Origin: Cytophagales bacterium
Lineage (GTDB): Bacteria > Bacteroidota > Bacteroidia > Cytophagales > JAHDFW01
Length of the DNA stretch: 32,135 nucleotides
NCBI GenBank assembly: GCA_020627945.1
Contig: JAHDFW010000016.1
Span: forward strand, 1 to 32,135
Direction of reading: 5' to 3'
Part shown: positions 7,327 to 22,995 of the stretch, piece by piece
How positions within the stretch are numbered: the stretch's first letter is position 1
Layout of the letters: every line of letters starts with the position of its first letter
Notes under the pieces: model-generated
Seen by the model: the letters and a program-made list of their open reading frames with translations, nothing else
Database searches by the model: none
Told to the model about the DNA's origin: nothing
Translations under genes and position numbers: made by a program

Positions 7327-9507
7327 TTATAGGTTGCTAACAATGTAGTTTGTCATCATGTTATAAAGGTGAGTTCTTGTTACCCCTCCATAGATTCCAT
7401 GATTCTTATTTGGATAATAAAACGAAGTAAACTGTTTATTAGCCTTTATCAAAGCATCTTCTAATTCAATAGCGTTTTGGAAATGTACATTATCATCGGC
7501 TGTACCATGGATCAACATATAGTTTCCTTTTAATTTGTCTGCATGAGACAGAGGAGAGTTTTCATCGTATCCAGCAGCGTTGTTTTTAGGCAGCCCTAAG
7601 AAACGTTCTGTATATATTGTATCATAAAATCTCCATGAAGTAACAGGAGCTACTGCTACACCAGCTTTAAAATATTCAGCTCCTACAGTTAAACAAAGGG
7701 AAGTCATATATCCTCCGAAACTCCATCCCCATATTCCGATTCTGTCTTTATCAACAAATGAAAGTGTTTGTAAGTATTTTGCGCCCTCAATTTGATCTTT
7801 GCACTCAAGGTTTCCAAGTTGTCCATAAGTAGATTTTTTGAAATCTGCACCTCTATATCCGGTTCCTCTATTGTCAACCGAAACTACGATATATCCCTTT
7901 TGAGCCAACAGTTGATACCAAGCTAGATTGAAACCTCCCCAACTGTCTGTAACGGTTTGAGAACCTGGTCCACCATAGACATACATCAATACTGGGTATT
8001 TTTTATTAGGATCAAAGTCCTTTGGTTTCAACATCCATCCGTTGAGCTCCACATTTTCGGTGGTTTTGAACTTGAATAATTCACGATCAGCGAAACCATA
8101 CTCCTCTATCTTATCTTTTAAGTCTTTGTTACTAACCAAGGTGCTTTGTTTTTTGTTTCCAGCGGTTTTAAACAAACTAACCACAGTAGGTACATTCAAA
8201 GAAGAATAGTGGTCGAAATAGTATTTGGTGTCTGGACTCATATTAATCCCATGAGTACCATTTCCCTTAGTCATTCTAGTTTTTGACGTTCCATTTAGGT
8301 TAATACTATATAACTGTCTGTCCATCGGAGAAATTTCAGCAGAGGTATAATAGATCATGCCTTTCTTTTCATCTACGCCTTGAAGTCCAGCAACATCCCA
8401 ATCTCCTTTTGTTACCTGATTTATCAATTTACCGTTGAAATCATATAGGTAGAAGTGCTTGTAACCACTTTTTTCACTAGCAATTAAGAACTGATCTTTC
8501 TTTTTAAAGAAGTGAATGTCGTCATAAACCTCAACGTAAGTATTGTTTTTCTCTTCTAAAATCAGAGTTTGTGATGAAGATGTGGTGTTCGTTTTAAGAA
8601 TGCTTAAGTGGTTTTGTAATCTGTTGAGCTTAAAAATAAGCAGTTCTGCACTAGTATTGGTCCAGAAGATTCTTGGTACATACTGATCTTTTCCTTTACC
8701 ATCTTCTAGTAAAGTGGATTTATTACGTAGGATGTCATAACAGAAAACACTGACTTCCGAATTGTCTTCTCCAGCTTTTGGATATTTAAACCTGTAGTCA
8801 TTTGGGTAAAGTTGCCCCCAAGTTTGCATGTTATATTCTTTTACTCGAGACTCGTCAAATTTGTAATATGCAATTTTACTACCATCAGGAGCCCAAGAAA
8901 AAGCTACAGCCTTACCAAACTCTTCTTCATAAACCCAATCGGCCCAACCATTAATGATTTTACCCCAAGAACCATCTTCAGTAATCCTAACTTCTTTTTG
9001 AGAAATTAGATTGGTGTAATACAAGTCATTGTTTTTAACGTATGCGATTTTCTTTCCGTCTGGTGAAAATTTTGCAAACATAATTTTTTCGTTATTCGAA
9101 ACATTATACAAATTCTTCGATTTAGTATTATATATGTAATATATAGCCTTGTAGGAGTGTCGATAGATTGATTCCACACCAGTTTCGATTAGAATCTGAC
9201 TTTGATCTTTAGAAAATGAATACGAGGATATATTTATTTTTTCACCGCCATTTGCTTTTTGTAAATCCTCACCACTAAGGATAGTGGCTACTTTCTTATC
9301 TGTTACAATGTTGTATTTAATGATGTCATTGGAAGCGAGGACACTATAGAAGTTGCCATTGTTCATCCAGTTAACACCTCCAATTCGATCTTCGGAGAAT
9401 TGGTAGCTGCTCCAAATATCTTCAACAGTTATTTCTTTTGTTGCGCTTGCATAGAGTGAGGAGAATATTACTACGAGTAAAAGACTCTTTTTAAATAATG
9501 ATTTCAT
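7327..9507 (-). CDS. Dipeptidyl peptidase IV-type serine peptidase (S9B)
   Basis: Secreted prolyl dipeptidyl peptidase, 726 aa. The signal peptide (MKSLFKKSLLLVV...) is cleaved near ASA at about residue 22. Next comes the N-terminal beta-propeller (about 35-470) with the substrate-N-terminus-binding double-glutamate motif DWVYEEEF at 190-197. The alpha/beta-hydrolase domain carries GWSFGGY with nucleophile S596, TADDN with the acid at D671/D672, and H703 in NKNHG. All catalytic residues are present. I start at the ATG at 9507, because the longer frame reaching 9627 runs through the promoter at 9589-9557 and would bury the signal peptide. It probably works in peptide scavenging in the periplasm or at the outer membrane. 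The M42 aminopeptidase gene nearby is on the opposite strand. Confidence 0.93.
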   Translation of the reverse strand: MKSLFKKSLLLVVIFSSLYASATKEITVEDIWSSYQFSEDRIGGVNWMNNGNFYSVLASNDIIKYNIVTDKKVATILSGEDLQKANGGEKINISSYSFSKDQSQILIETGVESIYRHSYKAIYYIYNTKSKNLYNVSNNEKIMFAKFSPDGKKIAYVKNNDLYYTNLISQKEVRITEDGSWGKIINGWADWVYEEEFGKAVAFSWAPDGSKIAYYKFDESRVKEYNMQTWGQLYPNDYRFKYPKAGEDNSEVSVFCYDILRNKSTLLEDGKGKDQYVPRIFWTNTSAELLIFKLNRLQNHLSILKTNTTSSSQTLILEEKNNTYVEVYDDIHFFKKKDQFLIASEKSGYKHFYLYDFNGKLINQVTKGDWDVAGLQGVDEKKGMIYYTSAEISPMDRQLYSINLNGTSKTRMTKGNGTHGINMSPDTKYYFDHYSSLNVPTVVSLFKTAGNKKQSTLVSNKDLKDKIEEYGFADRELFKFKTTENVELNGWMLKPKDFDPNKKYPVLMYVYGGPGSQTVTDSWGGFNLAWYQLLAQKGYIVVSVDNRGTGYRGADFKKSTYGQLGNLECKDQIEGAKYLQTLSFVDKDRIGIWGWSFGGYMTSLCLTVGAEYFKAGVAVAPVTSWRFYDTIYTERFLGLPKNNAAGYDENSPLSHADKLKGNYMLIHGTADDNVHFQNAIELEDALIKANKQFTSFYYPNKNHGIYGGVTRTHLYNMMTNYIVSNL

Positions 9508-9589: not shown

Positions 9590-9771
9590 AAAAATATATT
9601 GATTACAACTATTATCGTACCAAGCACGTCATATTATCGACCATTCGGAAAATCCTAGGTTATAAGAATTTAGGAAAATTGGTTGAAAAGATTACTTAAA
9701 TGTGATGTCCTTATTTTATCGAATAAAGGCATGTTTTAATCGAGGAATCTTTTAATCGTACAAGAAATTAT

Positions 9772-9779
9772 TATCTTTG
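9772..9779 (+). promoter_or_regulatory. -7 promoter box of the lipoprotein gene
   Basis: TATCTTTG is a perfect TAnnTTTG match. The -33 region (around 9749-9753) is T-rich but lacks TTTG. The expected transcript has a leader of about 50 nt that is almost all A and T, a pattern typical of strongly translated Bacteroidota genes. Confidence 0.55.
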
Positions 9780-9835
9780 TACTGATTTGAAAAATAAAAA
9801 AATTAAGAACAATTTTATAAACAAAACAAAAAGCA

Positions 9836-10843
9836 ATGAAAAAAGTATCTTATTATTTATCGTTGGCAGCTGTAGCTTCAATGGTAGCGCTTTCTGGATG
9901 TAACAACACTGATCCAGATCCAGATCCAGACCCAACAACAACTTGTGCAGATTTAGTATACCCAACTGCTACAGGTGATGCTGATATCCAAGTATTGAAC
10001 TTTGCTAGTTCTACTATTGAAGTGGAGGCTGGTAACGTTTTAGCTCTTGCAGTTCAAGCAACTAAAGGTTCTAACAGAACTCAAAAATTAAGATTATGGG
10101 CTTCTGATTGTGAGAACTCTTTAGGTACTGAGGTAGATCTTACTGGTCAGCCAAAAGGTGGTAAAAACGGTATCGACTTGAGAAACACTGATGATCCTCA
10201 AGTAAGAAACGTAAACTATACTGTTCCAACTGGAATGAACCCAATTTACTTGACTATCGAAACTGACGAGTCTGGTGGAAATGTAAACTACAAGCAATTA
10301 ACTTTGAACGTAACTGGTTCTGGTATCGTTGATACTTGGTCAAGTATTGATTTAGGAGGTAACACTAACTCTCTTCCTTCAAGAATGGCTTCTGGAACAG
10401 GTCAAACTTATGTAGCGTGTGATGCTGCTGAGAACATTCAGTATATTGACATTACTTATGCTGTAGGTACTGCTTCTCCATATGATTCTTACTTATGCTC
10501 TAACCCAGCTCGTTTCTTAAGCCCAATCGGTCTTACTGTAAGTAACGCTACTGGATGTGATGCTGACGATCCAACTGGAACTACTCCAACTGATGGTGGA
10601 AACAAGTCTCACTTCAAGACTTCTACTATGGATTTCGCTACTGCGACAAACGATTCTTTAACTGGACTTTCAGTTTCTGCTAGTGATCCTGAGTACGTTG
10701 TAATCAGCGCTGTAGGTGATGTTTTCGAATTCATGAGCGAAGATGGAAGAAAAGGTTTGATCAAAGTTGATGCTGAAGATGCTACTTACGGACTTATGGA
10801 CGGACGTGGAAGTATTACAGTATCTGTTAAGATCCAACGTTAA
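9836..10843 (+). CDS. Putative abundant cell-surface lipoprotein, unknown function
   Basis: A 335-aa lipoprotein with lipobox LSGC (acylated Cys22), followed by an Asp-Pro spacer of four repeats and a Thr-rich linker. The mature part is rich in Thr, Ser, Gly, Asn and Val and looks all-beta, perhaps two immunoglobulin-like domains, ending in SITVSVKIQR. A few cysteines (in TTCAD, SDCEN, VACDA, YLCSN, TGCDA) could form disulfides. I recognise no family. Codon choice differs from neighbouring genes: GGT, ACT, TCT, GCT, AAC and GAC dominate. A perfect -7 box, an A-rich leader and a strong terminator also point to high expression. It is monocistronic. Acidic residues straight after the lipidated Cys may act as a surface-export signal, as described for Bacteroidota lipoproteins; that is inference here. 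Confidence 0.85.
   Translation: MKKVSYYLSLAAVASMVALSGCNNTDPDPDPDPTTTCADLVYPTATGDADIQVLNFASSTIEVEAGNVLALAVQATKGSNRTQKLRLWASDCENSLGTEVDLTGQPKGGKNGIDLRNTDDPQVRNVNYTVPTGMNPIYLTIETDESGGNVNYKQLTLNVTGSGIVDTWSSIDLGGNTNSLPSRMASGTGQTYVACDAAENIQYIDITYAVGTASPYDSYLCSNPARFLSPIGLTVSNATGCDADDPTGTTPTDGGNKSHFKTSTMDFATATNDSLTGLSVSASDPEYVVISAVGDVFEFMSEDGRKGLIKVDAEDATYGLMDGRGSITVSVKIQR
9911..9934 (+). repeat. GATCCA hexamer tandem repeat (Asp-Pro spacer)
   Basis: Three perfect GATCCA units and a fourth GACCCA, encoding four Asp-Pro pairs just after the lipidated cysteine. Slippage would change spacer length by whole codons without a frameshift. Confidence 0.8.
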
Positions 10844-10853
10844 TATGAATTGA

Positions 10854-10874
10854 ATTCGAGATTTAGTCTCGAAT
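10854..10874 (+). other. 3'-UTR hairpin without U tract
   Basis: ATTCGAGA (10854-10861) and TCTCGAAT (10867-10874) form a perfect 8-bp stem with loop TTTAG, 10 nt after the lipoprotein stop and 11 nt before the terminator stem. It has no T run, so it is more likely an mRNA-stabilising or processing element than a terminator. Confidence 0.5.
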
Positions 10875-10885
10875 ACAAAATAAGG

Positions 10886-10919
10886 AAAGCCTTTCCTCGT
10901 TAGAGGGAAGGCTTTTTTT
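10886..10919 (+). terminator. Intrinsic terminator of the lipoprotein gene
   Basis: AAAGCCTTTCC pairs with GGGAAGGCTTT (one U-G wobble) around a short loop and runs into seven T residues. It lies 42 nt after the stop codon. Confidence 0.85.
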
Positions 10920-13479: not shown

Positions 13480-14319
13480 TTATTCCTGAATTACCATTTC
13501 AATGGAGGTAACTCCTTGGGCATCAAATAACCCTAAAGCTCCATTAGAAATCGTAGAAGGTACGTTAGATGGAGGAGCATCAAATATTCCTCCTCGCCAC
13601 ACAGTTTCAAGATTAGCAGCAAGATAATAATCATATGCCTCCTCGGAGATTGTACGTTGCTCAAGATAAAGCGAATCTCCTACTTCAGCTTCTAAGCCTC
13701 CTTCAATAACAAGTGAATCTAATTGTTGTCCATCAACAAATTCATCATCACTAAACTGAAATCCTCCTAAAGTATCACCTGGAGTCGAACCGTTAATGTA
13801 TAATTTCCACATGTAGTAATCACCTTTCCCTGCCTTTTCATAGGTATTTACAAAAACTGTGTATAACGAATCTTCTGTTGCAAGAAAATAGTTTTGCTCC
13901 ACCCATATTTCAGTCATTTCAGGAACATCTCTTAGTGTTGCAGATGAAGTATAGGTTTGGCCTCTAAAATCAATATTTAGAGTGTAAGTCTTACCAAACT
14001 CACCTGCCACAGTAGGGGCAGTTTGATAAACACCTGGTTCATTTTCTGTTAAATTAAATGTGGTTGTTCCATCCGAAATAGTTACCGTAGCACCTTCTGC
14101 TTTTGGTAATTCTCCTGATCCATAGAATTTACCAGAAAGAGATAAATTGATGGTATGTGCTTTTGCTTCGTTGGTAATATATCCTTCAACTACAAGAATC
14201 TCTTCTTCACTTTCATTAAGATCGAAGTCAATGTCTTCCGTACAGGAAAATAATCCAAACGTTAATGCTAACATTAATGATGCATTAAATATTAGCTTGG
14301 TGTTAAAATATCTTTTCAT
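13480..14319 (-). CDS. DUF4249 family outer-membrane lipoprotein
   Basis: A 279-aa lipoprotein; lipobox LFSC puts the lipidated cysteine at residue 26, followed by acidic TEDIDFDLNESEEE. The mature N-terminal half (VVEGYITNEAKAHTINLSLS... ATVTISDG) is the typical beta-rich DUF4249 start. It lies 43 nt downstream of the TonB receptor and surely shares its transcript. DUF4249 proteins regularly pair with TonB receptors that lack a SusD partner, so a surface ligand-binding or plug-lid role is likely by analogy. The ligand is unknown. The acidic run after the cysteine suits export to the cell surface. Confidence 0.85.
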   Translation of the reverse strand: MKRYFNTKLIFNASLMLALTFGLFSCTEDIDFDLNESEEEILVVEGYITNEAKAHTINLSLSGKFYGSGELPKAEGATVTISDGTTTFNLTENEPGVYQTAPTVAGEFGKTYTLNIDFRGQTYTSSATLRDVPEMTEIWVEQNYFLATEDSLYTVFVNTYEKAGKGDYYMWKLYINGSTPGDTLGGFQFSDDEFVDGQQLDSLVIEGGLEAEVGDSLYLEQRTISEEAYDYYLAANLETVWRGGIFDAPPSNVPSTISNGALGLFDAQGVTSIEMVIQE

Positions 14320-14362
14320 AATCTACAAGTCGTATTTATGTTGTTTAATATCTAGTCTTCAA

Positions 14363-16672
14363 TTAGAGCTTAAAGTTGTAAGTGATTGAAGGAATAATTG
14401 AGAATAAGTAAACCATTTCGGCTTTCGTAGTTCCTGGGTTGTCAGAGTCCTCAGTAAAGTTAATTACATATGGATTCTTTCTTAAATATGTATTGTATAC
14501 AGAGAAAACCCATTCACCGATAGCTTCTTTACCATCTTTACGCTTTGGTGTTAAAGTAGCTGATAAATCCAATCTATGATAAGGAGGCATTCTAGCTCCA
14601 TTTCTGCTTGAATAAATTGGCACAATTGTGTTACCAAACTCATAACGTCCAATTGGAGTAGTAACAGCTGCTCCAGTAGAATAAATTAGAGTCGTTCCAA
14701 AATCCCAACGCTCATTTAAATCGTACATCGCAACAAGTGATAAGTCGTGACGTTTATCATATTTTGTAGGGTAAGTTAAGCCATTATTAATGGATTCAAT
14801 TTGACGTTCAGATCTAGCCAACGTATAACTAAGCCATCCTGTAAGCCTACCTTTTTGCTTTCTAATCAACCATTCTGCTCCATATGCTCTAGCAACTCCA
14901 AATCTTAATTCACCTTCAAGATAAGGGTTTAGCAATAATTGCGCATGGTCCCTAAAATCTATTGAATTATTCATGAACTTATAGTACAATTCAACGGAAC
15001 CTTCATAAGCATTGTCTTTGAAGTTTCTGAAATAACCAACTGCTACTTGATCTGCAATCTGTGGTTTGACATTTGGACTCGAAGGAATCCATATATCTAA
15101 TGGAGAAGCAGATGTTGAGTTTGATGCCAAATGTAAGTATTGTCTCATTCGGTTATAACTCAATTTTACAGAACTAGAAGTTGTTAAAGTGTATTTCAAC
15201 CCTAGTCTAGGCTCAAAACCACTAAAACTATTGAAAACTCCTTGATTGTAAAAAACTGAATCTACACGCTCATAAGATTGATCATCGTATATAAAGTGAT
15301 CGTATTTACCAGTGTTTTGGAATAATGACCATCTTAAACCATAAAGAGCTGAAAATCTTTTAGATATTTTGTGCTCATTACTAACATAAGCCGCATGTTC
15401 ATTAGCAAATGTTGTTTGAATCTCACTGGTAATAATAGAAGGTCCAATTTCGAATTCGACATCTCCTGGGTTAAAGGTGTGTCGGATGCTTTGACCTCCA
15501 AACTTAATTTTGTTATTAGGGTTAGGGTAGTATTCGAAGTCAGCTTTACCTGAGAAATCACGAATGTTTGATTTCCACTCAAAAAAATCGGATCCTAAGA
15601 AGTAGTCGAAGTTACTATAAAGTCCAGTTACATTCAGGAATAACTTATCATTGAATATGTGAGTCCAGCGAGAAGTTACGGTAGCATTTCCCCATTGCAG
15701 TCCAAAAAGGTCAGCTAAACTAAATACATCTCTTCCGAAATAACCAGAAACAAATACTTTATTGTTTTCATTAACATTCCAGTTAAGTTTAGTGTTTAAG
15801 TCGTAAAAATATAATTGGCTTTTACGTAAGTTGGTGTCGTTCGCAGCTGCAAGAGCTAAATCTCCATAGGTTCTTCTTCCTGAAACGATGAATGAGGCTT
15901 TATCTTCTTTAATAGGGCCTTCTAAAGTTAATCTACTAGAAATGGTTCCGATACCTCCCGTAGCGCCATATTTCTTCTTATTACCCTCTTTCATTCGGAT
16001 GTCAAGAACTGAAGATAACCTGCCTCCATATTCGGCCGGAATTCCACCTTTATAAAGCTTTACGTCCTTAACAATATCCGAGTTAAATACGGAGAAGAAT
16101 CCCATAAGGTGAGATGCATTATATACTGTAGCTTCATCAAGAATAATAAGGTTCTGATCAACTCCACCACCTCTAACGTAGAATCCTGATCCTCCTTCTC
16201 CAACGGTCTGCACACCAGGAAGTAATTGTATGGCTTTAATAACGTCGACTTCTCCCATTAATGCTGGAATTTTACGAATCGTATTAATGCTGATTTTTGT
16301 TGTACTCATTTCTAATGACTCAACATTTTTGTCCTCAGCTTCAGTAGTTGCAATTACTTCTTGAATATCGGTTCCTTCTGGTTCTAATTCAAAGTTTATT
16401 TTTTGACTTTGCGTGAGATTGATCGTTCTGGTAATCGTATTATACCCTAAAAAAGCGATCATAATCTCATGCTCACCTTCAGGAATCGTCAATGAATAGA
16501 ACCCATAAACATTGGTACTTGTACCAGTTTCAAGGTCTTTTACATACACGGTAGCTCCGATTTGCTCTTCGCCCGAATCTTTATCTTTTACATATCCACT
16601 GATAGTAAATTTGGATTGAGCAAAAATTGACATAGGAAGGAAAAGTACTAGACTAAGAAGAATACTTTTCAT
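14363..16672 (-). CDS. TonB-dependent receptor with CarboxypepD_reg-like domain
   Basis: Outer-membrane transporter of about 769 aa powered by TonB-ExbBD. Signal peptide MKSILLSLVLFLPMSIFAQ; then a CarboxypepD_reg-like domain (about 22-105; GYVKDKDSGEEQIGATVYV, STNVYGFYSL, AFLGYN); a plug domain (about 120-240; LLPGVQTVGEGGSGFYVRGG, YKGGIPAEYGGRLSSVLDI); and a 22-strand-type barrel ending in a C-terminal hydrophobic strand, YNFKL. I prefer the ATG at 16672; the ATG at 16693 adds seven residues and is also possible. A -7 box (TATTTTTG) lies about 130 nt upstream. Its partner is the DUF4249 lipoprotein, not SusD. That combination does not reveal the substrate; no siderophore, B12 or glycan genes are adjacent. 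Confidence 0.92.
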   Translation of the reverse strand: MKSILLSLVLFLPMSIFAQSKFTISGYVKDKDSGEEQIGATVYVKDLETGTSTNVYGFYSLTIPEGEHEIMIAFLGYNTITRTINLTQSQKINFELEPEGTDIQEVIATTEAEDKNVESLEMSTTKISINTIRKIPALMGEVDVIKAIQLLPGVQTVGEGGSGFYVRGGGVDQNLIILDEATVYNASHLMGFFSVFNSDIVKDVKLYKGGIPAEYGGRLSSVLDIRMKEGNKKKYGATGGIGTISSRLTLEGPIKEDKASFIVSGRRTYGDLALAAANDTNLRKSQLYFYDLNTKLNWNVNENNKVFVSGYFGRDVFSLADLFGLQWGNATVTSRWTHIFNDKLFLNVTGLYSNFDYFLGSDFFEWKSNIRDFSGKADFEYYPNPNNKIKFGGQSIRHTFNPGDVEFEIGPSIITSEIQTTFANEHAAYVSNEHKISKRFSALYGLRWSLFQNTGKYDHFIYDDQSYERVDSVFYNQGVFNSFSGFEPRLGLKYTLTTSSSVKLSYNRMRQYLHLASNSTSASPLDIWIPSSPNVKPQIADQVAVGYFRNFKDNAYEGSVELYYKFMNNSIDFRDHAQLLLNPYLEGELRFGVARAYGAEWLIRKQKGRLTGWLSYTLARSERQIESINNGLTYPTKYDKRHDLSLVAMYDLNERWDFGTTLIYSTGAAVTTPIGRYEFGNTIVPIYSSRNGARMPPYHRLDLSATLTPKRKDGKEAIGEWVFSVYNTYLRKNPYVINFTEDSDNPGTTKAEMVYLFSIIPSITYNFKL

Positions 16673-16789
16673 GATGATTTTGTTTCTAAACATTCTTTTA
16701 TTGGTAAAAATGTTATTTATCTATTATGTTTCACGGTTGGTTTCTTTAAAACTTGAACAATTATGACCAAGTTTTTGGTTAAAAACCAA

Positions 16790-17991: not shown

Positions 17992-19998
17992 TTATTTAAT
18001 TCCTGAAAGAATGTAATTAAAAACCTGAGTATCATTTTGAGTTTTTGGATTCAAATAGCACGATGTAATATGTTGTGGTGGAAGTATTAACCCTCTTTCT
18101 AACATTTCGACAATGGTATTATAGAATTTCAGAGAAGTTTTACCAATAAGTAGAGGCGATAAATCTTTGCCCGAATTCCAATACTCCAAAATTTTTCTTA
18201 ATCCTCGTAGGTACAAATAGTCTTTAGTGAAGCCTCCTCCTCGAAAAACTCGAGTAGTTATTGTGAAAGCAGAATCTTGATTTAATTTGTATTCGGTGGT
18301 AAGCTTTGTGAAAACAGACTTAAAATCTTCTCCATTACACATTTCATTGATGGCAATGGTTCTATAAGCTAATGTTTTTAACCGTTGTAAAGTTAAATTG
18401 CCTGACCAGTATTCAGCCATTACAGCCAAACCTTCTTGAGTCATGGTGTTGACTGGTAATCCTACATTAAATATTTTTAAAGGTTGTAAGTTTGAATTAA
18501 TAGTAGTTACCATGTGTACACCAACTTCGTGATGCATTAAGCCTTTGAACTGTCTGATTGGTAAGTTCAATTTGTCATTCACCAAAACCTTTTGTTGTCT
18601 ATTGAGGACCATCATGGAAGCAACCATTTTTTTTGAGACCCCTATACTTGATTTAAAACCATATTCTTGCAAATTTTCCTTTAGTAAATCTATGGCCTGA
18701 TTTTTTAAAATAGTATTTTGTGCTTTCTCCTCGTGGGGTAAAGAAGGCAAGTGTAAGAGGTAAGTCGCATTTTTCAGATCGCTTGGCGTTGGTTTACCGA
18801 AATATCTAAGCGAGTTATAAAGGAATTTACTAGTGCCTAGAGCTGCCATCATTTCTATTTTGTCTATGTACCCATTTACGGTTGCTTCATACATGTTTTG
18901 AATAGAAATGTCATTTATGGTTTCTAGATCTAAATTGTGAAGTTGTCTTTTAAGCAAGAACGGATCTACCTGAATTGGTTTATAATTGAATTCTGGATTT
19001 TCTGTAAAGTTTGACTTAAAAAAGCGTTTCTTTTCCTTTTCAAGGTTGATAGGGTTGACGAAGTTTAACAATTCAAAGTCTTTAACCAATTTGAAGAGTT
19101 TGCGATCTACTTTTTTTACGGTGTTATCAAGACTTTTTGGAAGCAGTTTGTTGTTTTTTGTTAGGCTCCAATTGGTAAAGTTTTGTGCAAATAAATTAGC
19201 ATTATCAAGGATCGCTTTTTTGAATTCAATTTTAAGTTCTTTAATGATTTGTGGGTAATCTTCTCCAGTCTCTTCATCACAATAGATTTTTTTTACTTCT
19301 GTAGCTAATACTAATGTTTTGCTAAAGTGCTTGGTTATGTATTCAAGGTTGTAACCTCTACCATGAAAAGTATCATTAATTTTAGAATCAATGGTTACAT
19401 TGCTATGCTCTAGTTTGATACATGAAAGTCGTTTATTCCACTCCTCCGTATGAGATTTAAATTTTGCGTTGATGCGTTCCGTACCAATGTTAAATACGGG
19501 TACAGGTCGTTCCCACCTTTTGTAATTATATGAATGGATATCATATACAACACATCCGTTATAGGTATATTCTAGTTGCTCAATAAGTGCATGTGTGATT
19601 TTGTAGTAATTATCGTGCTTAACGAGGGATTTTTGTTTCTGAACTTTTCCCAACGGGCGATTCCATACTTTCTTACCCCATGCCTGCTCATAAATAGCTT
19701 GGTCTGGAGAACGGTTTAAGTCATATTCAAATCTTGAATCACGGCCTACTAATACAATGGGTAGAGCAGATATAAATTCTCCGGTATAAGGATCCTCTTC
19801 GTACCATCTTTCGAAAGGACTAAGAGCACATTTTTCTTCTAGATCTTGACGTATATTACAACCATCGTGAATAGCGGTACAAACATAAGGGACATATCGA
19901 TCAATTCGAATGTACATAGAACCATCTGGAGTTTCCGCCTCGAAAACCTTGTTAGATTTTATTAGTTCTACGATTTTTGCAACGGAGAGTTTATGCAT
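17992..19998 (-). CDS. N-formylglutamate-amidohydrolase-like domain fused to QEGLA/DUF1704 metallopeptidase
   Basis: A 668-aa cytosolic protein without signal peptide. Residues about 30-260 look like an N-formylglutamate amidohydrolase (FGase) domain: AIHDGCNI with H44, SRFEYDLNR at 88-96, VYDIHSYN with D153/H155, and PVFNIGT at 167-173. Residues about 300-668 are DUF1704, the 'flavohemoglobin expression-modulating QEGLA motif' family, related to the eukaryotic MATCAP tubulin tyrosine carboxypeptidases. It has H490-E-V-G-V-H495 (HExxxH zinc site) and Q521-E-G-L-A with E522 as third ligand. All key metallopeptidase residues are present. The ATG overlaps the stop of the ATP-grasp gene by 8 nt, so translation is coupled. 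A C-terminal trimming role on a peptide made by the neighbouring ligase is a reasonable inference; the FGase-like half could be active or only scaffold. Confidence 0.85.
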   Translation of the reverse strand: MHKLSVAKIVELIKSNKVFEAETPDGSMYIRIDRYVPYVCTAIHDGCNIRQDLEEKCALSPFERWYEEDPYTGEFISALPIVLVGRDSRFEYDLNRSPDQAIYEQAWGKKVWNRPLGKVQKQKSLVKHDNYYKITHALIEQLEYTYNGCVVYDIHSYNYKRWERPVPVFNIGTERINAKFKSHTEEWNKRLSCIKLEHSNVTIDSKINDTFHGRGYNLEYITKHFSKTLVLATEVKKIYCDEETGEDYPQIIKELKIEFKKAILDNANLFAQNFTNWSLTKNNKLLPKSLDNTVKKVDRKLFKLVKDFELLNFVNPINLEKEKKRFFKSNFTENPEFNYKPIQVDPFLLKRQLHNLDLETINDISIQNMYEATVNGYIDKIEMMAALGTSKFLYNSLRYFGKPTPSDLKNATYLLHLPSLPHEEKAQNTILKNQAIDLLKENLQEYGFKSSIGVSKKMVASMMVLNRQQKVLVNDKLNLPIRQFKGLMHHEVGVHMVTTINSNLQPLKIFNVGLPVNTMTQEGLAVMAEYWSGNLTLQRLKTLAYRTIAINEMCNGEDFKSVFTKLTTEYKLNQDSAFTITTRVFRGGGFTKDYLYLRGLRKILEYWNSGKDLSPLLIGKTSLKFYNTIVEMLERGLILPPQHITSCYLNPKTQNDTQVFNYILSGIK

Positions 19999-21022
19999 TT
20001 TCTACAGTACTTCTGAATCTAGCTTTTCTATTTGCGCGCTCTTCTTTATCTGCGATTATTTCTTCGAAGAAATCCACTACATTTCGCTGAAGTTTGGTTT
20101 TCGAAAGTTTGTTGATGTTTGTAATTCCTCCTGGAGACATAACGTTAACTTCAATCAGTTTCCCTCCAATTATGTCCAACCCAACAAAGTATAAGCCATC
20201 ATTAACTAGTTTTTTACCGATCGCCTTACATATTTTTTTGTCAGATTTGGTTAGTGTGTATTTGACTGCGGAACCACCTACTGCAACGTTGGAGCGAGCT
20301 TCTCCATCAGCTGGGACTCTTCTATATGCACCAATTGGTTCTCCATTAAGCATTAGGACTCTAACGTCACCTTGATCTGCACCTTCAACGTACTCTTGAA
20401 GAATCACGTAATTATTTTCTCCTTTACCATTGGTAATGTAAAAATCTAGTAAAGAATTGATGTTTTGCATTGCATTTTTCTCAATTACGATTACTCCACT
20501 TCCTCCAAAACCGTTAAGAGGTTTAAGAATCATTTTATCGCTATCAGATTCTTCAATAATTCGTTTGAGGTATTTTTTATTTTTAGATACGAAAGTCTTT
20601 GGAATTATTTCGTTATCAGGATCATGATAAGTCGCTGTATATAATTTATTATTAGCTTCTCGTAAGCCCTCCAAACTATTTACAATAATGACATCATCTT
20701 TAACGGAGTCCAAGAAATTAAGCACCAATGGATCAAGAGGAGGATTGTCGCGCATAAATACGAGATCAAAACCAGCAAGAGGAAGCATTTGTTCTTTGAA
20801 CTTTACTTTCTTATAAAATGAGGATATACTAGTTGTTTTATTTGACGCCTTTTCTATTACATTACAAAATGACATGGTTATACTATCACGTATGGTAAGA
20901 TTAGCGGAGGTTGTTACTGCAACTGTGTGACCGCGTTGTGCACATTCATGAATTACGCGAAGGGTCGAATCTTTATCTGGTTCAACCTTGTCCCATGGGT
21001 ACATTAAGAAAAGTATGTTCAT
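19991..21022 (-). CDS. GshB-type ATP-grasp ligase (glutathione synthetase-like)
   Basis: A 343-aa ATP-grasp enzyme that joins a carboxylate, activated as acyl phosphate, to an amine. The N-terminal fold (DKDSTLRVIHECAQRGH at 16-32) and FMRDNPPLD at 89-97 match the proteobacterial glutathione synthetase GshB. ATP-binding parts are KPLNGFGGSGV at 167-177, QEYVEGADQGDVRV at 209-222, and GLDIIGGKLIEVNVMSPGGI at 281-300 with metal-binding E291/N293. The length is slightly above GshB's 315. There is no gamma-glutamylcysteine ligase gene in this window, so the true substrates are open: glutathione, or another amino-acid conjugate. It is coupled to the FGase-QEGLA gene and lies 76 nt below the 96-aa gene. 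Confidence 0.87.
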   Translation of the reverse strand: MNILFLMYPWDKVEPDKDSTLRVIHECAQRGHTVAVTTSANLTIRDSITMSFCNVIEKASNKTTSISSFYKKVKFKEQMLPLAGFDLVFMRDNPPLDPLVLNFLDSVKDDVIIVNSLEGLREANNKLYTATYHDPDNEIIPKTFVSKNKKYLKRIIEESDSDKMILKPLNGFGGSGVIVIEKNAMQNINSLLDFYITNGKGENNYVILQEYVEGADQGDVRVLMLNGEPIGAYRRVPADGEARSNVAVGGSAVKYTLTKSDKKICKAIGKKLVNDGLYFVGLDIIGGKLIEVNVMSPGGITNINKLSKTKLQRNVVDFFEEIIADKEERANRKARFRSTVENA

Positions 21023-21438: not shown

Positions 21439-22995
21439 TTAAATATTTGGTACTTCTGTTTTTATAGTATTTAGAAAACTTCTCCAATCTTGGTATTTGT
21501 CGTCGTTTAATACTCGGGGAAACTTATTTTGTCCACCGAGTTTACCTTGTTTGTGCATCCAATCATAAAAACAGTTCAAATCCATTATATGGATTCTGAC
21601 TTCATCAATCTTAATGGCCCTAACGGTAGCATAATCGTCGTTAAGCTGTTTAAGTGTGGTGTCTATAGTATTAATGATTACCTGTTTTGAAACACTTATT
21701 GTTTCCTTGTCAGCAGCTAGAAACCAATGATGAATGTGTTTTTTGTTAATTAACTCAGCGTAAAATGTAAACTCTCTGATTTCTTGGTTAATCGTTCGCT
21801 GTACCGCAGTCACAGCGGTACACAATTCTTCTTCAGTCAAATGCTCACCACAAAGGTTTACAAAATGACTAAGACGTCCTTTAACTTCAAATTGTAAGGA
21901 ATCAACGTCCGAAAAGCTAATGATATCACCCACCATATATCTCCAAAGTCCCGAAGCGTTTGATATCAAAACCACATAATCTTTATCATTAACCAGGTTT
22001 TCAATAGAGCAACATGTATGGTTTTTAGATAGAATATTGTCGTTGAAATTGACCTGATTTAATTCAATAAACTCGTAGTATATATTGTCATTTATGGCAA
22101 GAGTTAATGGAGAGTTTGGTTTTTTCTGATACCCGAAAAAACCTTCTGAAGCCAAATATGTTTCGGAATAAAAAATTGGTTGACCCATCAGTTGATCTAG
22201 AGCACCTTTATATGGTGTTAAACTGGTTCCGCCGTGGGCATATATTCGAAAATTGGGCCATAACTCATGTATGTTGTTTAGGTTGTAGGTGTCTATAAGT
22301 TTGTTGAAAAGTAATAAAAGCCATGATGGCACACCAGCTACCATTCCTACGTCCCAAGTTGGAGCGAGCTCAACTATTTTATCTATTTTTTGAACCCAAG
22401 ATTTTTCTTTGGCAATATCCTTACCAGGTCGAGTTATTGAATTTAGCCATAGTGGGACATCTTGTGTCATAATGCCACTTAAGTCACCTTCTTCCAACTT
22501 GCCAACCTTTGATAATAGAGTTGAACCTCCAAGTAAGAGAATTTCCTTCTCGTAAAAGTTGGGGGGCAAATCATAATTTTTTAATGTGTAAAAATGCTTA
22601 AGACTCGTGTTTAACAAACTTTTCCGCATTAAGTCCGAAATTGGAATTCGCTTACTTGAGTCAGAAGTTGTACCTGAAGTGAGAGCAAAATATTTAATTA
22701 CACCTGGCCATATTACATGAGGTACGCCTTTTTTTACTTCATTTAACCACGGATCAAGATAGGATTCATAGTTGAATACAGGAATCATCTCAGAAAATTT
22801 ACTTCTTATATTAGATTCCTTTTTGATATTTCGGAAATCAAAATGTTTCCCAAATTTGGTAGCCTCTGCAGTTTCAAGAAGTCTCTTTAATAATTGTTTT
22901 TGTTGACTAACTGCATATGCTTTAGACGTTGCCTGAGATGTGTATAGGCTCAAAATGCTTACACACTTTTTTATTATTTTCCCTTTTAATGCCAT
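21439..22995 (-). CDS. GH3 family acyl-amide synthetase-like protein
   Basis: ANL-superfamily adenylating enzyme, 518 aa. In plants GH3 enzymes couple hormones such as auxin or jasmonate to amino acids via an acyl-AMP; bacterial members have mostly unknown acids and amines. ATP motif TSGTTSDSSKRIP at 106-118; second motif YSETYLASEG at 276-285; YMVGD at 353-357; hinge GR at 373-374 and NLCGEHLTEEEL at 380-391. All three adenylation motifs are present, so it should be active. It starts 22 nt after the DUF1571-like gene. The substrate acid is probably made elsewhere. Its neighbours (ATP-grasp, amidohydrolase, metallopeptidase, Lrp) fit amino-acid conjugation. Confidence 0.9.
   Translation of the reverse strand: MALKGKIIKKCVSILSLYTSQATSKAYAVSQQKQLLKRLLETAEATKFGKHFDFRNIKKESNIRSKFSEMIPVFNYESYLDPWLNEVKKGVPHVIWPGVIKYFALTSGTTSDSSKRIPISDLMRKSLLNTSLKHFYTLKNYDLPPNFYEKEILLLGGSTLLSKVGKLEEGDLSGIMTQDVPLWLNSITRPGKDIAKEKSWVQKIDKIVELAPTWDVGMVAGVPSWLLLLFNKLIDTYNLNNIHELWPNFRIYAHGGTSLTPYKGALDQLMGQPIFYSETYLASEGFFGYQKKPNSPLTLAINDNIYYEFIELNQVNFNDNILSKNHTCCSIENLVNDKDYVVLISNASGLWRYMVGDIISFSDVDSLQFEVKGRLSHFVNLCGEHLTEEELCTAVTAVQRTINQEIREFTFYAELINKKHIHHWFLAADKETISVSKQVIINTIDTTLKQLNDDYATVRAIKIDEVRIHIMDLNCFYDWMHKQGKLGGQNKFPRVLNDDKYQDWRSFLNTIKTEVPNI

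Follow-up and report, generated by a model that had tools for sequence, protein, structure and literature searches.

The window, a stretch of 32,135 nucleotides from a Cytophagales genome (3.87 Mb in 227 contigs), carries on its forward strand a real gene for a lipoprotein, the subject of this report, whose product begins MKKVSYYLSLAAVASMVALSGC-NNTDPDPDPDP and whose features are collected in Table 1. A DPP-IV/S9 peptidase gene (7327-9507, reverse strand) runs divergently from it, and its other near neighbors encode DUF5686, DUF4249, and a TonB receptor, the last standing with DUF4249 at 13480-16693 and separated from the lipoprotein gene by two others. Elsewhere on the reverse strand, two ORFs (17992-19998 and 19991-21022) overlap and are possibly one operon spanning 17992-21022; the second we take to be ATP-grasp-like. 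The reverse-strand ORF at 21439-22995, presumably a GH3-type acyl-adenylating enzyme, has a relative at 29% identity in L028. An Rfam scan of the window gave nothing at gathering score, and its sub-threshold matches on the 3′ hairpins, which resemble generic terminators, were discarded. A tRNA search found none, and a search of a plasmid collection gave no match.

Table 1 Features of the lipoprotein gene, in window coordinates
Feature	Position	Strand	Description
Candidate -33 box TTTT	9750..9753	+	Three of four positions match Bacteroidota TTTG; 18 nt upstream of the -7 box
-7 box TATCTTTG	9772..9779	+	Fits TAHHTTTG
Presumed 5′ leader	9784..9835	+	84.6% A/T; presumed transcription start
CDS	9836..10843	+	335 aa lipoprotein; TAA stop; CAI rank 1/319
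Signal peptide and lipobox LSGC, lipid-anchor Cys22	9836..9901	+	Cys invariant in 15/15 homologs
Acidic spacer NNTDPDPDPDP	9902..9934	+	Two Asp within six residues after Cys22
Ig-like beta-sandwich	9971..10321	+	Residues 46-162; predicted model, many Ig-like chains at Z 7.7-9.4
C-terminal DUF4466/HmuY-fold domain	10328..10840	+	Residues 165-335; predicted model
Hairpin without U tract	10854..10874	+	Perfect 8-bp stem
Intrinsic terminator	10887..10919	+	12-bp stem with one G-U, loop GTTA, T run

The available part of PMC6847099 gives the Bacteroidota promoter consensus as TTTG (-33) and TANNTTTG (-7). A perfect -7 box had been noted in a preliminary description of this DNA, and it is present. 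The TANNTTTG motif alone is no evidence, since its count in the window is at chance level (49 against 42.6 ± 6.7 in shuffles). What support the box has comes, with some qualification, from the homologs: a box of this type lies within 140 nt upstream of 8 of 13 family genes and at -53 to -64 in 6 of the 13, the target being included in both counts, which the AT-richness of intergenic DNA lifts somewhat by chance. The leader, earlier called almost pure A/T, falls short of that at 84.6%; it is the most A/T-rich among 24 starts examined in the window, by a small margin over the next ones at 82.7%. Folded together with the first 20 nt of the coding sequence, it has little structure (-1.6 kcal/mol).

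The tandem hairpins behind the stop codon are likewise real, if not both a family trait. The first (ATTCGAGA-TTTAG-TCTCGAAT) is one of 11 matches, some overlapping, to a search of the whole window for perfect 8-bp stems and has a z of -3.25 when folded alone. Inspection by eye showed no counterpart in the other 12 family genes, so that we rejected it as a family feature; at a guess, it may be an RNA-stabilizing or processing element restricted to its own genome. The second is a strong terminator with its stem at 10887-10914 followed by a T run, and the whole stretch between the stop codon and the end of the terminator has a folding energy of -37.7 kcal/mol (z -9.6; 0 of 200 shuffles). By eye, a terminator-like hairpin with a U tract lies downstream of 11 of the 13 family genes, the exceptions being G378, with none, and G141, with a weak one. 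With a promoter and a terminator of its own, the target gene would be monocistronic.

The very high expression proposed earlier, in part from strongly biased codons, is well supported by the codon adaptation index (CAI), computed against ribosomal ORFs of the same genome. In a first, smaller sample (17 reference ORFs), the lipoprotein gene had a CAI of 0.850 and ranked first of 154, with a leave-one-out ribosomal median of 0.734. In a sample of 433,352 bases (15 reference ORFs), about 11% of the genome in 31 non-randomly chosen pieces, it ranked first of 319 ORFs of at least 100 aa at 0.848, above EF-G (0.815) and the ribosomal proteins, the median being 0.622. Eight of the pieces were taken at OMP-type matches, one at ribosomal operons, one at a weak match, and one is the window; the remaining 20 came from even steps through the contig numbers. 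Rank one was kept in both samples after the expectation from amino-acid composition was subtracted; ranked by z-score, which grows with length, the gene came fourth of 154 in the first sample. High expression in this organism is thus very probable, and the gene appears to rank with the most strongly expressed ones of this bacterium. Three other exported-looking ORFs (L053, 161-6236; L054, 7391-8908; L131, 6957-7334) also stand near the top of the sample in codon adaptation and are candidates for further abundant envelope proteins.

We also compared homologs in ten relatives with their own ribosomal references, leaving out G095, G081, and G039. The homolog's CAI exceeded the ribosomal median in five (G006, G004, G023, G170, and G141), came close to it in one (G047), and fell short of it in four (G061, G319, G378, and G357). 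Given this variation, high expression of the family is likely to be common, but not universal, across relatives.

The lipobox cysteine is invariant in the alignment of 15 full-length homologs, the target included, and the acidic Asp-Pro spacer described earlier follows it. Its first residues, NNTDPD, supply the at least two acidic residues within six after the cysteine that serve as a mark of surface export in the accessible text of PMC12578637. At positions +2 to +7, a script counted at least two such residues in 23 of the 30 members that it scored; L018 and L077, missed by the script pattern, pass by eye, giving 25 of 32, and the other seven scored members (L012, L020-L022, and L073-L075) have one acidic residue only. 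On account of the acidic residues after Cys22, a surface location is fairly probable. The Asp-Pro part is encoded at 9911-9934 by near-identical 6-bp repeats (GATCCA three times and GACCCA), at which slippage could lengthen or shorten it; homologs have spacers of different lengths.

Searches of Pfam, NCBIfam, and PHROGs with the protein returned no family at a useful level, and sequence searches of the PDB no useful match; profile A1 reached 4fxt at E 0.0032 and BamM (9n2d) at 0.69. Homologs were found in 14 of 98 whole genomes at E 0.01 and in 15 of 390 members of the order at 1e-6 (own genome included in both), and a profile search of the phylum gave matches in 14 of 395 genomes. A scan of a collection of genome contigs with the single protein gave 19 candidates, none of them confirmed. 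Relatives named by the protein search are Cytophagales MAGs and Xanthocytophaga flavus (homolog L039); L040, with a broken frame, was excluded from alignments. The C-terminal domain reaches much further: at E 0.001, profile A5, made from 29 rows of this domain, had matches in 132 of the 390 Cytophagales genomes, which represent 53 of 129 genera.

The domain ends the protein, within a few residues, in all 32 proteins read. Elsewhere in the phylum it may follow an Ig-like domain, three PKD domains (L073; L074, L075, and L083 appear similar), several repeats that by eye are Ig-like (L068), or the lipid anchor with nothing between (L077-L079). Since such varied domains, or the anchor alone, precede it, the computation establishes the C-terminal domain as a widespread module. 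No Pfam family that would give the domain a name matches any of the 29 rows, for which reason the domain deserves its own HMM; DUF4466 was matched weakly by two of the 29 (best 4.7e-4). Asp205 is invariant in all 29. Cys195 and Cys241 go as a pair: the 12 of 29 rows that have one are exactly those that have the other, so that a disulfide between them is likely in the target's subgroup. Tandem paralogs of the domain were seen at G009:C1:1515699-1519530, with four in a row, and also in G071:C3, G106:C104, G036:C1, G186:C9, and G202:C40.

Structure prediction gave a fold where sequence libraries had given no family. A model of the full protein, built from a 7-sequence alignment (pLDDT 78, pTM 0.54; domain arrangement uncertain), matched in Foldseek the structure 4ei0 of Parabacteroides merdae PARMER_03218, a DUF4466 protein (Pfam PF14725), at E 2.8e-11, the next entry standing at 3.3e-4. 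Structural alignment of this model to 4ei0 gave Z 15.5 over 248 residues (46-335) with an rmsd of 10, as expected if the two domains have moved relative to each other; the next entry (9.4) aligned with the Ig part only. Modeled by itself, the C-terminal domain reached pLDDT 89.2 and pTM 0.85 in the best of five models (the other four, pLDDT 69-82) and aligned with the C-terminal half of 4ei0 at Z 15.5, rmsd 2.8 over 147 residues. Among the entries listed, eight of HmuY type came next (6ewm, 10.1; 3h8t, 9.5; 6r2h, 9.3; 8b6a, 9.0; 3u22, 9.0; 6eu8, 8.8; 4gbs, titled just "putative lipoprotein," 8.6; and 8b61, BfrC, 7.5), before a drop to 3.9; Foldseek kept this order with weaker E-values. The part of PMC2671838 available presents the fold of HmuY itself as new and all-beta, resembling a right hand, with heme gripped by His134 and His166. 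The predicted models thus show the Ig-like plus C-terminal domain order of 4ei0 and, in the latter domain, the right-hand fold, and an architecture of lipid anchor, Ig-like domain, and DUF4466/HmuY-fold end domain is probable with good confidence.

These results bear out most of the preliminary description. The gene, -7 box, codons, hairpins, and terminator that it observed are there; its high expression agrees with the codon bias, and its acidic spacer and all-beta body agree with the sequence and the predicted models. Its statement that no family is recognized holds for the sequence libraries but not beyond them: the fold search returns clear DUF4466/HmuY-type relatives, and a clear match to a known family exists at the level of the fold only. 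The unknown family becomes an unnamed, widespread, and structurally recognizable one.

By sequence, the links to DUF4466 and HmuY are weak. The PF14725 HMM (cut-off 25 bits) did not match the target; the best relative, L018, matched it at E 8e-4 and 19.6 bits, below the cut-off, and bridges the family to DUF4466. Our profile aligned with the DUF4466 protein P0002 at E 2.9e-4 and 40% probability over 133 columns in register. The PF14064 (HmuY) HMM, with a cut-off of 27 bits, matched neither the target nor anything in its genome, and HMM cross-matches were poor. A relation to HmuY at 81% probability was rejected, as signal peptides in both profiles had inflated the score; with these trimmed, hhalign gave 13-35%, aligned on the last strands, and the scores exceeded all 100 column shuffles (26.1 against 19.2; 30.3 against 14.4). 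The families have in common a hydrophobic/W-Asp-[ILV]-x-[FY] motif, which contains Asp205 here, reads WD in HmuY members, and is KIDLVY in DUF4466. Most HmuY relatives ligate heme via Met, according to the consulted section of PMC8911585. In our alignments, no column of the 29 C-terminal domain rows conserves His or Met (at most 4 of 29), nor does any column of the 15 full-length rows (maximum 4 of 15), and no conserved candidate for the iron-ligating pair H134/H166 of HmuY emerged. HmuY-type iron ligation in the family is consequently unlikely; porphyrin binding without such ligation may still occur.

Nine neighborhoods, compared by reading ORFs and by BLAST, have no operon in common, and an explanation through a conserved operon was rejected. 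The divergent DPP-IV gene adjoins in three of them (target, G061, and G006). BLAST found no TonB receptor gene common to the homolog neighborhoods and no SusC/SusD-like pair common to the other eight, and no SusD appeared among the target's neighbors scanned (up to two genes per side, in part).

Taken together, these observations lead us to favor, as somewhat probable, an abundant surface lipoprotein that displays a binding module of divergent HmuY fold. The gene would stand alone as a unit of very strong expression and yield an outer-membrane lipoprotein, which its acidic residues after the cysteine would direct to the cell surface; there the Ig-like domain may act as a stalk, and the hand-shaped C-terminal domain as a non-enzymatic binding module present in stoichiometric amounts. 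So much protein would be made because the module is used stoichiometrically. The ligand is probably something other than heme held by His/Met as in HmuY; candidates are a glycan, some other small molecule, or a partner protein of the surface layer, and any single one of these roles is doubtful at best. Counting against this reading are the uneven codon bias of homologs, the weak sequence link to HmuY, the 7-sequence alignment behind the predicted structure, the lower pLDDT of four of the five C-terminal domain models, and the 7 of 30 scored members with a single acidic residue after the cysteine.

The strongest rival, which we hold possible yet clearly less likely, is that the protein serves mainly to build a coat or matrix, as an abundant, surface-anchored structural lipoprotein whose beta domains pack or cross-link and bind no small ligand. 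The extreme codon bias, the lack of a conserved operon partner, the paired cysteines with their suggestion of a stabilizing disulfide, and the occurrence of the C-terminal domain behind three PKD domains would all suit such a coat, but the solved fold relatives outside DUF4466 mostly bind heme, and codon adaptation is uneven among homologs. Unlikely is a glycan-binding surface lipoprotein working in the manner of SusE/SusF: it draws on the DUF4466 relative P0002 (L057), which lies between what we take to be SusD-like and heparinase II/III-like ORFs, whereas the target's own neighbors are of other kinds, the eight other neighborhoods share no such cluster, and the target has no Pfam carbohydrate-binding match. 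A true hemophore passing heme to a TonB receptor is improbable, the HmuY-type fold predicted for the domain, and the binding of heme or protoporphyrin by some HmuY proteins without iron ligands (in the available part of PMC12106395), being outweighed by the absence of a PF14064 match, of a conserved His/Met column, and of a common TonB receptor beside the homologs.

Returning to the displayed binding module, we tentatively suggest, at odds distinctly short of even, that the HmuY fold has a non-heme, modular branch forming a major family of Bacteroidota surface lipoproteins, here among the most heavily produced proteins of the cell. The branch would be present in about one-third of the sampled Cytophagales genomes, with an Ig-like stalk, a PKD stalk, or none, and a common ligand, if there is one, would explain both its spread and its expense. 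Codon bias marks the target as a good family member for purification, and its presumed abundance would make the ligand question tractable. In the literature library searched, we found no paper on DUF4466, 4ei0, PARMER_03218, or PF14725, and searches on HmuY with Cytophaga and on abundant Cytophagales lipoproteins, together with the portion of PMC6247017 available, yielded nothing on this family.

Among known systems, the protein resembles the surface lipoproteins of Bacteroidota with a lipoprotein export signal (LES) in having acidic residues behind its lipobox cysteine, but with an Asp-Pro repeat in place of the consensus SDDDD, SDDFE, or X-K-(D/E)2 (as given in the accessible part of PMC5080379). 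With DUF4466, it has in common the two-domain order and fold of 4ei0 in the predicted models, the motif I-D-[ILV]-x-Y in register, and a lipoprotein-type N-terminus, seen in P0002; it differs in its identity to 4ei0 of only about 13-14%, and DUF4466 is rare (1 of 296 genomes of the phylum), the sole example found sitting in a likely polysaccharide cluster. The HmuY family (PF14064; HmuY, PinO, Tfo, BfrB, BfrC, and BVU_2192) likewise consists of Bacteroidota lipoproteins, and its predicted likeness lies in the fold of the C-terminal domain and in C-terminal strands and a W/I-D-I-x-F/Y motif that align weakly; the target family differs by its extra Ig-like domain, its lack of an HMM match and of conserved His/Met, and loci at which no hmu-type neighbors were recognized. 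The family thereby joins DUF4466, with its solved structure, to HmuY, known for heme capture in host-associated species, and the existence of a large environmental family that has an HmuY-type fold but does not conserve heme ligands points to the hand as a general scaffold for binding at the cell surface.
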